64,000 nucleotides of DNA from Sandaracinaceae bacterium (GTDB lineage Bacteria > Myxococcota_A > Polyangia > Polyangiales > Sandaracinaceae). The stretch is taken from positions 62,001 through 126,000 of the forward strand of contig JAIBCE010000001.1 in NCBI GenBank assembly GCA_019694315.1, in the 5' to 3' direction. This document shows, in pieces, positions 30,583-56,375 of the stretch. The translations under genes were made by a program, and so were the position numbers. Position 1 is the first letter of the stretch. Each line of letters opens with the position of its first letter. The notes below the pieces were generated by a model. That model saw only the letters and a program-made list of their open reading frames with translations, was not told where the DNA came from and made no database searches.

Positions 30583-31319
30583 AGAGCCTCGCTCTGAATC
30601 TGGCCCTCGCGCGACATCCCCGTGCCTCACGGGCGCACCCTCGGAGGCGCGAGCCAGTCCTCCCTGCTCCCATGGAACCAGGAACATGGAGGTACGCGCC
30701 GCGACGCGACCGCGCGTGAGCCTCTGCATTCTCGCGTCTGATCCGAATTCCGGAATCCCGGATCCGCAGAGCGCGACTTCGCCGTGCCTCACGGACGCAC
30801 CCTCGGAGGCGCGAGCCAGTCTGTCTCTGCTCCCAATCGAACAGGAACATGGAGCACGCGCCGAAACGGGAGCTCGCGTGAGCCTCTGCATCCTCGCGTC
30901 TGATCGGAGTCTCGCATGCGCAGAGCGCGACCTCCCCGTGCCTCACGGACGCACCCTCGGAGGCGCGAGCCAGTCTGTCATGCTCCCAATCGAACAGGAA
31001 CATGGAGGCACGCGCCGAAACGGGAGCTCGCGTGAGCCTCTGCATCCTCGCGTCTGATCGGAGTCTCGCATGCGCAGAGCGCGACATCCCCGTGCCTCAC
31101 GGACGCACCCTCGGAGGCGCGAGCCAGTCCCTTCCTGCTCCAATCGAGCAAGGACATGGAGGTACGCGCCGCAAACGGGGCTCGCGTGAGCCTCTGCATT
31201 CTCGCGTCTGGTCCGAATCCCGAAATGCGGATCCGCAGAGCGCGACATCCCCGTGCCTCACGGACGCACCCTCGGAGGCGCGCGCCAGTCTGTCTCTGCT
31301 CCCATGGAATCAGGCCTCA
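30583..31319. repeat. tandem repeat array, about five imperfect 154-162-bp units
   Basis: This is the only gene-free stretch over 300 bp. It is filled by direct repeats: a degenerate first unit (30583-30738), then units starting at 30739, 30901, 31055 and 31209 (spacings 162, 154, 154), the last cut short at the stop of the flavin oxidoreductase gene. The segment gacgcaccctcggaggcgcg is nearly identical in all, as is gtgagcctctgcat. Units differ at their left end (gatccgaattccggaat versus gatcggagtctcgcatg). Because 154 is not a multiple of 3, reading frames do not stay in phase, which argues against a repeated protein. Confidence 0.9.
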
Positions 31320-37724: not shown

Positions 37725-40328
37725 ATGAGGGTCAGGGAGCACACGGGCCGGTGCGGCTCGAAGGTCTCGTCGTGTCTGGCGATCGCGCTGTCGCTCTCGG
37801 CGCTCTCGGCGCTCTCGGCGCGGGCGTCGGCGCAGACCCTCGACGGCGCGCTGGCCAACGCGCAGCTCGGGCGCGCCCTCGCGATGCAGGGCGGACGCCT
37901 CGTGGTGGGCGAGCTCGTGGACGGAGACGAGACGGTGGGGCGCGCGTACGTGTACGACGTGCGCGGCGCGAGCCCCGTGCTCGAGGCCACGCTGAGCCCG
38001 TTCGGCCCCGAGAACGCAGAGCACTTCGGCATGAGCGTGGCGATCGACGGTGATCGCGTGTTCGTGGGCGCGCCCGACGCGGACGCGTACTCGCTCGGCG
38101 CGCTCTACGTGTTCGAGCGACAGAGCGATGGGCGCTGGCTCGGTGTGCAGCGGCTCGTGGAGTCGCCGCGCGGGGAGCCGCCGCGGATCGGGGGGCCCGA
38201 CAATTTCGGCGGGTTCTTCGGGTGGCGCATCGTGCCCGTGGGGGACGTGCTCGCGGTGTCGGCACCGTACTACGACCGCTGGCGCACGGCGCAGGGCGCG
38301 GTGGTCTTCTTCACGCGCGACGCGGGCACGGGCCTCTACACGCAGGCGCTCCTCGTCGCGAGCCCCGCGACCACCCACGACCCGACGTGCAGCAATTGCG
38401 AGCTCTTCGGCTTCGGGCTCGCGTTCGATGGACATCGCCTCGCGGCGTCGAACGGCAAGAACGAGACTGTGTATCTCTGGGACGTGGACACGAGCGCAGG
38501 GGTCCGGCTGAGCGGGCCGCGCACGATCACCCGCGCCACGTACGCGGACGCGACCGGGCCGCGGCGTGACCTCTTCGGCTGGGGCCTCGCCTACGCGGGG
38601 AGCACGCTCTTCGCGGGCGCGCGCAACGCGTACGTGGGCGGGCTCGAGCGCGGCGCTGTGCTCGCGATCGACGAGGCGAGCGGCACCGAGGAGCTCGTGG
38701 TCGGCGCGAGCATGCCCTTCGGCACGCTGCCCGGCACACCGAGCTTCGGGACGAGCATCGTGAGCGACGGGGATCTCGCCGCGATCGGCGGCGACGACCT
38801 GGCGAACGTGCGCGTGCTCGAGCGCGTGGCGGGCCGCTGGCGCCTCGGACGCACGATCACGACGACGGCCAGCTACGGCCGCTTCGGCTCGACGCTCGCG
38901 CTCGAGGGAGGCCTGCTCGCGATCGGCGCGCCGAACGAGGACACCTCGCACGGGGCGCACGCCGGACGCGTGTCGCTGCACTGGCTGGCGCTCGTGGGCG
39001 AGAGCTGCGACACGACGACCCTCTGCGCGAGCGGCACGTGCGACGCGGGGCTCTGCGTCGATGGCGTGCCCACCGACGCGGGGATCCGCGATGCGGGCCC
39101 GGCCGACGCCCGTGTGGTGGATGCCAGTCCCGTGGATGCCAGTCCCGTGGATGCCAGTCCCGTGGATGCCAGTCCCGTGGATGCCAGTCCCGTGGATGCC
39201 AGTCCCGTGGATGCCAGTCCCGCGGATGCCAGTCCCGTGGATGCCAGTCTCGTGGATGCCAGTCCTGGGAACGCCGATGCCGGTCTCGCGTCGATGCCGG
39301 ACACGGGCCTCGTGCCGCGGGTCGAGGTGAGCTGCGCGTGCCGCGCGGTCGGAGGCACGGGGCGGAGCGGCGGAGGGCCGCGATCGCTCGGGATCCTGGC
39401 CCTCTTGGTGCTCGGTCTCGTGCGTCGTCGTCGGCTCGCGCGTCACGCGGCGGGGCTCGCCCTGCTCGGGTCGCTCGCGCTCTCGTGCCCGGTGGCGCAG
39501 GCCCAAGCGACGTCGTCCACGGACGCCTCGACTGCGGAGACCACGCCTCCCAGCGAGGCCGCGCTCGCCGAGGCGCGGGCGCGCTTCCAGCTCGCGCAGG
39601 CGCACTATGCAGCGGGCAGCTTCGCCGACGCGGCCGAGGAGCTCGAGCGGGCGTATGCGCTCTCGGGCCGTGACGCGATCCTCTACAACCTCCACCTCGC
39701 GTACCGGGAGATGGGCGACGTGCCGCGCTCGGCCGAGGCGCTGCGCCGCTACCTGGCGGTGGCCGACGAGGATGATCTGCCCGTGGAGCGGCGCGCGCTC
39801 GAGAACCGACTCGCCGCGCTCGAGCGCACGCTCGCAGCGAGCCGCCCCGAGGTCCGGGACGACATTCGACCCGACATCCATCCCGACATCCATCCTGATA
39901 TCCGGGGCGAGCTCCGAGCCGAGGAGCCCAGTGACACCGCGCCGCAGCTGGCGGGCGAGGGCCTGTCAGAGACCACGACGGGCCTCGATCTCGCGCCCGG
40001 CGCGATCGTGCTCGGAGTGGGCGGGGCGAGCCTCGTGGCCTCTGCGATCCTCGGCGCGATCGCGGCCTCCACCCTCGCGGAGCGCGATCACGCATGCAGC
40101 CTCGGGGTGTCCGGCGATCTCTGCCCGGCGTCCTATGATCAGGCCTCGATCGTCGAGCGCTTCGTGGTGCAGCGAGACGTCGCGTGGGCTCTCTTCGCAG
40201 GTGGCCTCGGCGTGGCAGCGACCGGCGCCGTACTCCTCGTGGTGGGCGCGAGCGACGATGCGCCCTCGCCCGTGAGCGCCACGTGCGGGCCCACGGGCTG
40301 CGAGCTCGCTGCGACGATGCGCTTCTAA
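37725..40328 (+). CDS. secreted FG-GAP-like protein with internal MYXO-CTERM-like tail fused to a second secreted TPR protein
   Basis: An 867-residue open frame with a double plan. Residues 1-37 are a signal (ALSLSALSALSARASAQ). About 38-420 are FG-GAP/integrin-like repeats (FGMSVAIDGDRVFVGAPDAD, FGWGLAYAGSTLFAGA, FGSTLALEGGLLAIGAPNED). A short Cys pair region (425-447) and ten VDASP repeats follow. CACR at 537-540, a Gly/Arg spacer, LGILALLVLGLV (555-566) and RRRR make a MYXO-CTERM-like tail. It is followed at once, in frame, by a second signal-like stretch ending AQA (591-593), a TPR-like domain (about 608-690) and a C-terminal membrane region. No stop separates the halves; GTG 39420 could start the second. 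Confidence 0.8.
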   Translation: MRVREHTGRCGSKVSSCLAIALSLSALSALSARASAQTLDGALANAQLGRALAMQGGRLVVGELVDGDETVGRAYVYDVRGASPVLEATLSPFGPENAEHFGMSVAIDGDRVFVGAPDADAYSLGALYVFERQSDGRWLGVQRLVESPRGEPPRIGGPDNFGGFFGWRIVPVGDVLAVSAPYYDRWRTAQGAVVFFTRDAGTGLYTQALLVASPATTHDPTCSNCELFGFGLAFDGHRLAASNGKNETVYLWDVDTSAGVRLSGPRTITRATYADATGPRRDLFGWGLAYAGSTLFAGARNAYVGGLERGAVLAIDEASGTEELVVGASMPFGTLPGTPSFGTSIVSDGDLAAIGGDDLANVRVLERVAGRWRLGRTITTTASYGRFGSTLALEGGLLAIGAPNEDTSHGAHAGRVSLHWLALVGESCDTTTLCASGTCDAGLCVDGVPTDAGIRDAGPADARVVDASPVDASPVDASPVDASPVDASPVDASPVDASPADASPVDASLVDASPGNADAGLASMPDTGLVPRVEVSCACRAVGGTGRSGGGPRSLGILALLVLGLVRRRRLARHAAGLALLGSLALSCPVAQAQATSSTDASTAETTPPSEAALAEARARFQLAQAHYAAGSFADAAEELERAYALSGRDAILYNLHLAYREMGDVPRSAEALRRYLAVADEDDLPVERRALENRLAALERTLAASRPEVRDDIRPDIHPDIHPDIRGELRAEEPSDTAPQLAGEGLSETTTGLDLAPGAIVLGVGGASLVASAILGAIAASTLAERDHACSLGVSGDLCPASYDQASIVERFVVQRDVAWALFAGGLGVAATGAVLLVVGASDDAPSPVSATCGPTGCELAATMRF
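39117..39266 (+). repeat. ten tandem 15-bp coding repeats (gtggatgccagtccc)
   Basis: Ten units encode VDASP with two variants (ADASP, VDASL). Near-perfect identity at DNA level implies recent slippage expansion. It is the linker before the MYXO-CTERM-like tail. Confidence 0.95.
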
Positions 40329-40376
40329 ACAGAATCGCCGAGACAGTGGATCATCCGCGTCGAGGCGATTCTGTTT
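40327..40376 (+). terminator. 13-bp perfect inverted repeat overlapping the stop codon
   Basis: aaacagaatcgcc (40327-40339) pairs perfectly with ggcgattctgttt (40364-40376), loop 24 nt. The left arm begins within the TAA stop of the fused gene and the right arm ends in TTT. A terminator is likely; the long loop is unusual. Confidence 0.65.
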
Positions 40377-40407
40377 CGCGGAGCGGAGTTGGGTGGGGGG
40401 CCCCGAA

Positions 40408-40495
40408 CCGGCTTCGCCGGGCGGGGGGCGGGTCTGCATCAGACCCGCCGAAAGGAAGGCTACACATGACTCGGCGTCTCGCCGATCATGTGTAG
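40408..40495. repeat. cluster of three perfect hairpins
   Basis: After the terminator come ccggc-ttc-gccgg (40408-40420), ggcgggtctg-cat-cagacccgcc (40427-40449), and ctacacatga...tcatgtgtag (40460-40495), which encloses cggcg-tct-cgccg. With the terminator this makes four stems in about 170 bp of intergenic DNA. Role unknown: terminator cluster, REP-like element or RNA. Confidence 0.7.
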
Positions 40496-40561
40496 TGCGC
40501 TCCGACGAGAGCGATCGCCCTCGGATCGGCGCATTTCACGTTGGTCGAGGAGGCGCTCGTG

Positions 40562-40567
40562 TAGCAT
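40562..40567 (+). promoter_or_regulatory. candidate -10 box TAGCAT, 9 nt before the 40577 start
   Basis: TAGCAT ends 9 nt before the ATG at 40577. No Shine-Dalgarno sequence is seen. Confidence 0.4.
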
Positions 40568-40576
40568 CGTCGGCGC

Positions 40577-42121
40577 ATGTCGCGTCCCTCTCTTCGGCTC
40601 GCCTCTTCGCTCGTCCTCGCGCTCGTGGGCCTCTGGGCCGCGCCGCTCGCCGCACAGACGGTGCAGCTCGGCGAGCCCAACGCGAACCGCTTCTATGCCT
40701 CGCCGGCGGGCGGCTTCTTGATGGTCGATGGCTCGGACGTGTCGGGCGAGCTCCAGCCGTACTTCTCGGTGATGGCCGACTACTCGCATCGGCCGATGAC
40801 GCTCGACAACGTGCGCGCGCTGACCGTGGGCGGCGACCCGCGCAACGACGACCTCGACGTGGTCGGCGGCATGACGACCCTCCAGATCAACGGCGCGCTC
40901 GCGCTCTTCGATCGCCTGCAGATCGGCCTCAACATCCCCGTGGTGCTCCACACGTTCGGGGCCTCGTACGAGTGGACCCAGGCGGCCTGCAGCCCGCCGG
41001 AGTGCGATCCGCCGCAGCCCATGCACCTCTACCGCTTCCGTGGCGGCGACGGCGCGACGCTCGGCGATCCGCGCCTGCACCTGCTCGTGAACATCATCGA
41101 TCCGGACGATGCGAGCGGCATCGGCTTCGGTGTGGCGGCGTGGGCGACAGCGCCCGTCGCGCGCGCGGTCCTGCCGGGCCGGTATGCGGGCGACCCGAAC
41201 GTGGCGTTCGGCGGGCACCTGATCTTCTCGGTGGCGGTCGAGCGCTTCCGCGCGGCGATCAACCTCGGCGGCGCCTACCACGACACCGCGCAGATCGTGC
41301 TGCGAGAGGGCGTGGAGGGCTCGGCGCGCACGCCGGAGATGACCTGGGGCGCGGCCGCGCAGTACGACTTCGACGAGATGTGGGGCCTCCTCGCGGAGAT
41401 CACCGGGGCGACCACGTTCGGGCTCGTCTACGACAACGAGGCGCCCACCGAGCTCCGGGCTGCAGGCGTGCTCCGCATCGACGACTTCACGATCCGTCTC
41501 GGCGCGGGCGCGGGCCTCGCGTACGCGATCGGTGTGCCCGTGTTCCGCGTGCTCGGAGACATCGCGTACTCGCCGCGGCCGGTGCACGACAGCGACGGCG
41601 ACGGTCTCAAGGACGACGTGGACAACTGCCCCGCCGACGACGAGGACTTCGATCAGTACGCCGACGAAGACGGATGCCCCGAGCCCGACAACGACGACGA
41701 CGGCGTGCTCGACGCGACCGACCAGTGCCCGAACGACGCCGAGGATCGCGATGACGTGAACGACGAGGACGGCTGCCCCGATCCCGACGACGACGGCGAC
41801 GGGATCGCCGACGGCTACGACTCGTGCCCTGCGCAGCCCGAGGATCGCGATGGCGACCGCGACGACGATGGCTGCCCCGACACCGATCGCGATCGCGACG
41901 GCCTCAACGACGACGTGGATCGCTGTCCCGAGGAGCCGGAGGACACCGACGGTCTCGGCGACGAGGACGGCTGCCCGGACGTGGACTTCGACTCGGACGG
42001 GGTGCCCGACAGCGACGACGAGTGCCCCGAGGAGGCCGAGGATCGAGACGGCTTCGAGGACGCCAACGGCTGCCCGGAGGAGGGCTCGGCGCCCGTGCGC
42101 GGGCGGCAGCGCGGCCGGTGA
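40577..42121 (+). CDS. outer-membrane protein with thrombospondin type-3 (Ca-binding) repeats
   Basis: A 514-residue exported protein. The signal ends in PLAAQ. Residues about 25-330 look like an outer-membrane barrel (strands such as IQINGALALFDRLQIGLNIPVVLH, AAINLGGAYHDTAQIVL). From about residue 335 there are six to seven Asp-rich repeats of the type DxDxDGxxDxxDxCP (DSDGDGLKDDVDNCP, DNDDDGVLDATDQCP), which bind Ca2+ in thrombospondin type-3 and OmpA-linked proteins. The usual C-terminal OmpA peptidoglycan-binding domain is absent; the protein ends in a short Arg-rich tail. Confidence 0.85.
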   Translation: MSRPSLRLASSLVLALVGLWAAPLAAQTVQLGEPNANRFYASPAGGFLMVDGSDVSGELQPYFSVMADYSHRPMTLDNVRALTVGGDPRNDDLDVVGGMTTLQINGALALFDRLQIGLNIPVVLHTFGASYEWTQAACSPPECDPPQPMHLYRFRGGDGATLGDPRLHLLVNIIDPDDASGIGFGVAAWATAPVARAVLPGRYAGDPNVAFGGHLIFSVAVERFRAAINLGGAYHDTAQIVLREGVEGSARTPEMTWGAAAQYDFDEMWGLLAEITGATTFGLVYDNEAPTELRAAGVLRIDDFTIRLGAGAGLAYAIGVPVFRVLGDIAYSPRPVHDSDGDGLKDDVDNCPADDEDFDQYADEDGCPEPDNDDDGVLDATDQCPNDAEDRDDVNDEDGCPDPDDDGDGIADGYDSCPAQPEDRDGDRDDDGCPDTDRDRDGLNDDVDRCPEEPEDTDGLGDEDGCPDVDFDSDGVPDSDDECPEEAEDRDGFEDANGCPEEGSAPVRGRQRGR

Positions 42122-56184: not shown

Positions 56185-56375
56185 TCCCGAGCAGACTGTC
56201 CATCCTCCGACTCGAATCTCGAGTCGATGCGACGGCAGACTGCCCATCATCCGACTCGAATCGATGCGACGGCAGACTGCCCATCCCCCGACTCGAGTCT
56301 CGAGTCGATGCGTGGGCAGACTGCCCATCATCCGACTCGAGTCTCGAATCGATGCGAGGGCAGACTGCCATGTCG
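56185..56375. repeat. 44-bp tandem repeat array with internal dyads
   Basis: Five copies of a unit beginning gcagactg start at 56191, 56235, 56272, 56316 and 56360 (spacings 44, 37, 44, 44). Each holds gactcgagtctcgagtc-like palindromes; the 37-bp copy has lost 7 bp of the dyad. It lies in the 220-bp space between two convergent genes and might act as a two-way terminator. Except for the repeats nothing else is seen in that gap. Confidence 0.9.

Follow-up and report, generated by a model that had tools for sequence, protein, structure and literature searches.

Between the stop codon of one gene (ending at 40328) and the ATG of the next (40577), a gap of 248 bp in the window, by which we mean the whole 64-kb stretch of DNA analysed here, holds four perfect stem-loops in a row, which raises the question of what kind of sequence this is. 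The preliminary description offered either a REP-like cluster or a structured RNA upstream of a next gene taken to encode an outer-membrane protein, with RNA folding, covariation and recurrence elsewhere in the genome as checks.

Layout and folding of the structured gap

All stems are present as described, namely AAACAGAATCGCC/GGCGATTCTGTTT at 40327-40376, the first bases of which overlap the TAA stop of the upstream gene, CCGGC-TTC-GCCGG at 40408-40420, GGCGGGTCTG-CAT-CAGACCCGCC at 40427-40449, and the nested stems CTACACATGA..CGGCG-TCT-CGCCG..TCATGTGTAG at 40460-40495. Folding of 40320-40580 gave -148.4 kcal/mol compared to -111.5 +/- 5.2 kcal/mol for 200 dinucleotide shuffles (z = -7.05), none of which folded equally low, a structure far beyond chance. 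Both termini of 40325-40495 carry an imperfect inverted repeat (80% over 20 nt, 16 of 20 positions matching). The four stem-loops are one 171-bp dispersed element, here termed family A, rather than separate features (Table 1). Consensus scans of 40325-40495 identified no promoter-like site and predicted no U-tract terminator.

Regulation of the downstream gene (40577-42121) by a structured RNA leader in cis would be consistent with the position of the element upstream of that gene, its strong fold and the covariation described below. However, copies lie beside unrelated genes, behind stops as well as at starts, and the homologue of the downstream gene in a same-genus genome has no copy upstream of it. 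Furthermore, the window contained no Rfam match at the gathering score, and permissive searching yielded one sub-threshold, chance-like match in each of two runs. A leader for the next gene, as the preliminary description had it, is hardly credible on this evidence, and an outer-membrane function of that gene was not confirmed, Pfam showing only thrombospondin type 3 repeats.

The upstream gene product (37725-40328) contains FG-GAP repeats (Pfam), and a 15-bp tandem repeat of 9.9 copies inside this gene (39117-39265) encodes VDASP repeats. The window also holds a tandem array with a 154-bp unit in 4.4 copies (30609-31304) and another with a partly palindromic unit of ~44 bp (GGCAGACTGCCC..CTCGAGTCTCGAG; 56191-56369), possibly another REP-like repeat.

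Table 1. Features of the family A element in the window (window coordinates) and of the related family B.
Feature	Position	Strand	Basis or remark
Family A element including C-TA and TA-G borders	40325..40495	+	At least 13 near-full-length copies, this one included, in own genome
TAA stop of upstream gene (37725-40328)	40326..40328	+	Left target TA plus first base of the element
Left TA, putative target duplication	40326..40327	.	CTA precedes 12 of 15 distinct exact left ends
Left terminal inverted repeat AACAGAATCGCCGAGAC (17 bp, imperfect)	40328..40344	+	Inverted-repeat search; exact left ends of copies
Left end hairpin, 13-bp stem with inner pairs	40327..40376	+	Inverted-repeat search, folding
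Conserved core, common to family B and related genomes	40377..40449	+	Alignment, covariation
Core hairpin 1, CCCCG-AA-CCGGC-TTC-GCCGG-G-CGGGG	40401..40426	+	Helix 1: 95.4% of cells paired, two-sided changes in 7 of 10 pairs
Core hairpin 2, GGCGGGTCTG-CAT-CAGACCCGCC	40427..40449	+	Helix 2: 85.8% of cells paired, two-sided changes in 6 of 10 pairs
Right end hairpin, perfect 10-bp outer and 5-bp inner stems	40460..40495	+	Exact hairpin at 7 places in own genome, reversed control 0
Right terminal inverted repeat, CACATGATCGGCGAGAC on the - strand (17 bp, imperfect)	40476..40492	-	Inverted-repeat search; ends of copies
Right TA, putative target duplication	40493..40494	.	Flanks of copies
End sequences of these elements			AACAGAATCGCCGAGAC, GAGCACCGAT, GCTTGCGGG
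Family B, full-length	L203 1501-1656 and 7 further loci		Own genome

Families A and B in their own genome

The genome of origin (G000; 8.67 Mb, 630 contigs) contains many copies of the element. A 261-bp query returned 65 matches, among which are hairpin arms aligned to their own complement, with 40 of 168 candidates scored, so that copy counts are minima. With the 171-bp query, at least 13 copies covering at least 161 bp were identified at 85-100% identity, confirming the expected recurrence, and at least four, including the one in the window, are identical over 171/171 bp. The flanks of the copies are unrelated and similarity breaks off sharply at CTA...TAG; further copies are internally deleted or cut by contig ends. 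Among 20 family A loci, 19 are intergenic or overlap only the stop of a gene, and the remaining one (L029) overlaps a weak gene call. The length of 171 bp lies below the limit of ~300 bp for miniature inverted-repeat elements (MITEs), and the terminal inverted repeats recur in the copies. Plasmid records yielded no match, and viral contigs none to one exact 25-nt end pattern.

The flanks of seven family A copies were queried against four genomes including the same-genus G001, which lacks the core according to the covariance model described below. Two G001 sites (corresponding to L003 and L009) align on both sides of the junction with the element absent. At a third, the orthologue of the L002 gene (57% identity over 147 residues) has a TGA of its own as stop, at an unchanged codon position, and hardly any sequence separates the two convergent genes. 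For the remaining four copies, G001 matches were one-sided or missing. The locus in the window is uninformative as an empty site because the same-genus region also lacks the upstream gene. Family A is dispersed and has been recently copied. The sequence flanking 12 insertions is palindromic over 7 bp at L003 and over 3-5 bp at the remaining 11, a pattern that was considered without a null model and dropped.

A motif in the flanks of three family A copies (L004, L006, L014) led to a second family, B, of 156 bp (copies 141-156 bp), which has hairpins at both termini in the same layout as family A and the same kind of core in its interior, but different ends, consisting of the perfect 12-bp sequence TAGAGCACCGAT (target TA included). 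Family B is joined to or lies beside family A at these three loci. A third recurring module, GAGAGATGGAGAAA..AATCGCC..GGGGACGCCACG..GGGGTTGCGCAGCAACCCC, was observed at L182 (from ~143), L185 (1501-1815) and L021 (downstream of 1116), either fused to family B ends or in the vicinity of family A, and the repeats look mosaic.

The borders of both families share a common pattern. The 15 distinct exact left ends of family A that were compared for a preceding CTA (Table 1) all come from loci fetched by similarity and none by end pattern. In family B, 31 of 32 exact ends follow TA, with C preceding the TA in 27 of 31, and all eight full-length copies read C-TA...TA-G, of which the outer C and G alone are independent evidence because these loci were fetched by a pattern holding the TA. 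Two occurrences of TA with C and G present once each would be the expected footprint of insertion into the TA of CTAG, the putative target duplication being read from flanks, since divergence of the intergenic sequence leaves no base-exact empty sites. CTAG is very rare in the window, with four sites (three coding, one intergenic, none at stops), a number too small for a statement on enrichment, and 50 TA sites lie outside coding bodies, three of them in stops.

Some of these borders coincide with stop codons, as called here and in relatives by a custom codon-usage gene caller rather than taken from an annotation. The upstream gene in the window ends in TTC-TAA, and in six of 20 examined copies in its own genome (L001, L002, L006, L007, L010 and L015) the left end of family A makes the stop of the neighbouring gene, with the qualifications that L015 reads TGA and that the gene called at L007 is a stub of 34 aa. 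At least one end of family B is exactly the TAG of a neighbour in five of eight full-length copies. In one of these (L196, 1501-1656), each end provides the TAG stop of one of two convergent neighbours, as though a single palindromic CTAG common to both genes had been split. Family A copies adjoin gene starts as well as stops, and this family is therefore not orientation-locked.

The conserved core in related Polyangia

The core of the element matches genomes beyond the genus. Four families of the order contributed 25 core copies (24 distinct) to an alignment in which 13 of 20 pairs have two-sided changes, and the covariation score of 0.390 exceeds those of shuffled (0.157) and slid (at most 0.121) alignments, so that the covariation looked for is present, in the core of a dispersed element. 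A covariance model of the core detected it in 19 of 144 genomes of the order, eight of which had contributed sequences to the model. Among 282 genomes sampled across the phylum, nine contain the core, seven of the same order (own genome included) and two of the same class. The number of candidates scored per genome was limited, which makes all copy numbers from the model (up to 34) lower bounds. An exact core pattern searched against 84,980 species genomes retrieved six stretches, all from Myxococcota, Myxococcales, Sandaracinaceae or Deltaproteobacteria MAGs. That the core is kept while the ends change argues for a function. In one genome (G010:C27:22721-23144), three successive core matches occur at a spacing of 175 bp.

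To the right of the core, relatives show a strict orientation. Sixty stretches, among the best-scoring copies, were fetched from six genomes, and the pattern matched 52 core copies, 36 of them from the congeners G002 and G007; five without a usable right-hand neighbour (two called inside an ORF) were excluded. In the remaining 47 copies, a gene was called within 200 bp to the right of the core, and its stop codon faces the core in 45 and its start in two, with a stop-to-core spacing of mostly 9-10 nt from the end of the pattern. No such rule applies to the left side, where 20 stops and 13 starts were found within 250 bp. A copy in G014 (L068, 733-887) has its core ~10 bp behind a tRNA-Val gene, facing the 3' end of that gene in the same sense.

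Orthologues of 11 core-flanked G002 genes were identified in G007 at 87-98% identity. Directly behind the same stop, G007 has nothing similar in seven cases, internally shortened forms in three and an ambiguous sequence in one. This comparison indicates turnover of the elements at genes and stops that themselves persist, gain and loss being indistinguishable. Two further G002/G007 locus pairs share both flanks and element, and some copies are therefore inherited. In related Polyangia, this core is combined with other ends in a family that lies directly behind stops in one orientation, its presence differing between congeners.

Ordinary strong intrinsic (rho-independent) terminators, alike because of their base composition or because they descend from a common ancestor at the same genes, without any movement, would likewise place stable GC-rich hairpins directly behind stop codons, and the two locus pairs with shared flanks and element fit this explanation. 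Yet the copies here are near-identical and dispersed, four of them identical over 171 bp between unrelated flanks, with several hairpins in fixed order and, by consensus scan, no U-tract, and the element is absent at seven of 11 orthologous stops in the congener as well as at the three family A sites in G001. We consider terminators without movement very improbable. For the mobile elements preferred here, the position of the core behind stops and its stable hairpins suggest a role in ending transcripts or protecting their 3' ends; the missing U-tract and the indecisive G-U strand asymmetry, examined as a sign of an RNA role (31 versus 19 cells), argue for leaving a terminator role as a possibility.

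Proposed mechanism and relation to known mobile repeats

The search for a parent transposon covered IS630-type loci and RAYT-type (Y1_Tnp) genes. The own genome has a single IS630-type match, a partial gene (L212, 1090-1875) near a contig end and downstream of a prs-like gene. Eight IS630-type loci (one from the own genome, seven from G002 and G007) were compared with the ends of both families and gave no convincing match, only scattered ones with at least two mismatches. Some MITEs have no known parent, and a MITE-like membership is kept here for this reason.

Taken together, 40325-40495 is in our judgement probably one copy of a MITE-like, non-autonomous mobile element with a putative insertion into the TA of CTAG and a terminator-like core. 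The inverted ends, TA borders and turnover point to a transposase acting in trans, which might be one that duplicates TA and prefers CTAG, such as that of IS630/Tc1-mariner. IS630 is said to prefer the TA in CTAG, going by the title of a 1991 report by Tenzen and Ohtsubo. Insertion into this site would leave C-TA...TA-G borders, and where CTAG served as a C-TAG stop codon, the end of the element would rebuild the stop, as TAA by the left end of family A and as TAG by both ends of family B, making the insertion silent. The core would act as a terminator-like or 3'-end-protecting module. IS630/Tc1-mariner elements are described as duplicating TA (PMC2170065), and the likeness to them lies in the TA flanks in CTAG context as read from the flanks of copies; the elements described here, in contrast, have no transposase inside, and their ends are absent from the eight loci compared.

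The elements could alternatively be MITEs of an IS5-type rather than an IS630-type transposon, some IS5-related MITEs targeting CTAG or YTAA. One of them, MITEPsy1, is described as a MITE targeting these motifs, inserting after them and duplicating the target (PMC3189936). A 4-bp duplication, however, would leave CTAG on both sides, and the copies read only C-TA at the left border and TA-G at the right, which makes an IS5-type origin unlikely.

Another explanation is a REP/BIME-type repeat moved by a RAYT (Y1 HUH) transposase, in which GTAG-tagged hairpins are excised as single strands. REPs are described as dispersed palindromes mainly behind genes, and GTAG-tagged REPs as able to supply a TAG stop (PMC3733652). 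The elements likewise are dispersed palindromes behind genes with perfect end hairpins, family A has GTAG at the end of its right hairpin (for family B, the terminal letters are CTA-G), and the own genome has six Y1_Tnp matches (best 4.8e-9), which keeps a RAYT conceivable for family A itself. However, no Y1_Tnp match was found in the core-bearing G002, G003, G007 and G043, and the core-free G001 has 11; moreover, the units of 171 bp (A) and 156 bp (B), compared to 20-40 bp, comprise several hairpins and have inverted ends with TA on both sides, and core copies in relatives are strictly oriented. Movement by a RAYT thus seems improbable, and of the suggested REP-like cluster the dispersed palindromic repeat stands, as one composite element in place of a cluster.

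Extending the MITE-like reading, we tentatively put forward as a possibility that a Polyangia superfamily of mobile 3'-end modules exists, in which a conserved two-hairpin core within several end types would insert exactly at or behind stops (in CTAG or CTGA contexts, and in one orientation in relatives), rebuilding TAA or TAG or leaving TGA and so keeping proteins unchanged, and in which transcript ends would be gained and lost by transposition via a targeting enzyme.

Bacterial MITEs such as RUP, NEMIS, ERIC and Nezha are characterised in one source as non-coding, shorter than 300 bp, with inverted ends, many gene-adjacent copies and stable hairpins (PMC3733652). Families A and B resemble them in their small size, lack of coding capacity, inverted ends, many gene-adjacent copies and stable hairpins, but differ in an interior that shows conservation and covariation across genera, with different ends in each family, in the placement exactly on or behind stops and in having no parent among the eight IS630-type loci. 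A literature search found no description of families A and B, nor of such repeats in this bacterial group, to which they add repeat families. The novelty lies in an element of the MITE kind that combines a covarying, conserved interior with differing ends and exact stop-codon placement. The usual view of bacterial MITEs is that of degenerate transposon ends around an interior without meaning. In the present elements, conservation lies in the interior and variation in the ends, and their placement at stop codons is so exact that the protein keeps its sequence. Should the core terminate or stabilise transcripts, these elements would represent a natural mobile terminator rewiring gene ends between close species, and the pairs with and without the element at the same stop codon (seven of 11 genes in two congeners) make this effect directly testable.
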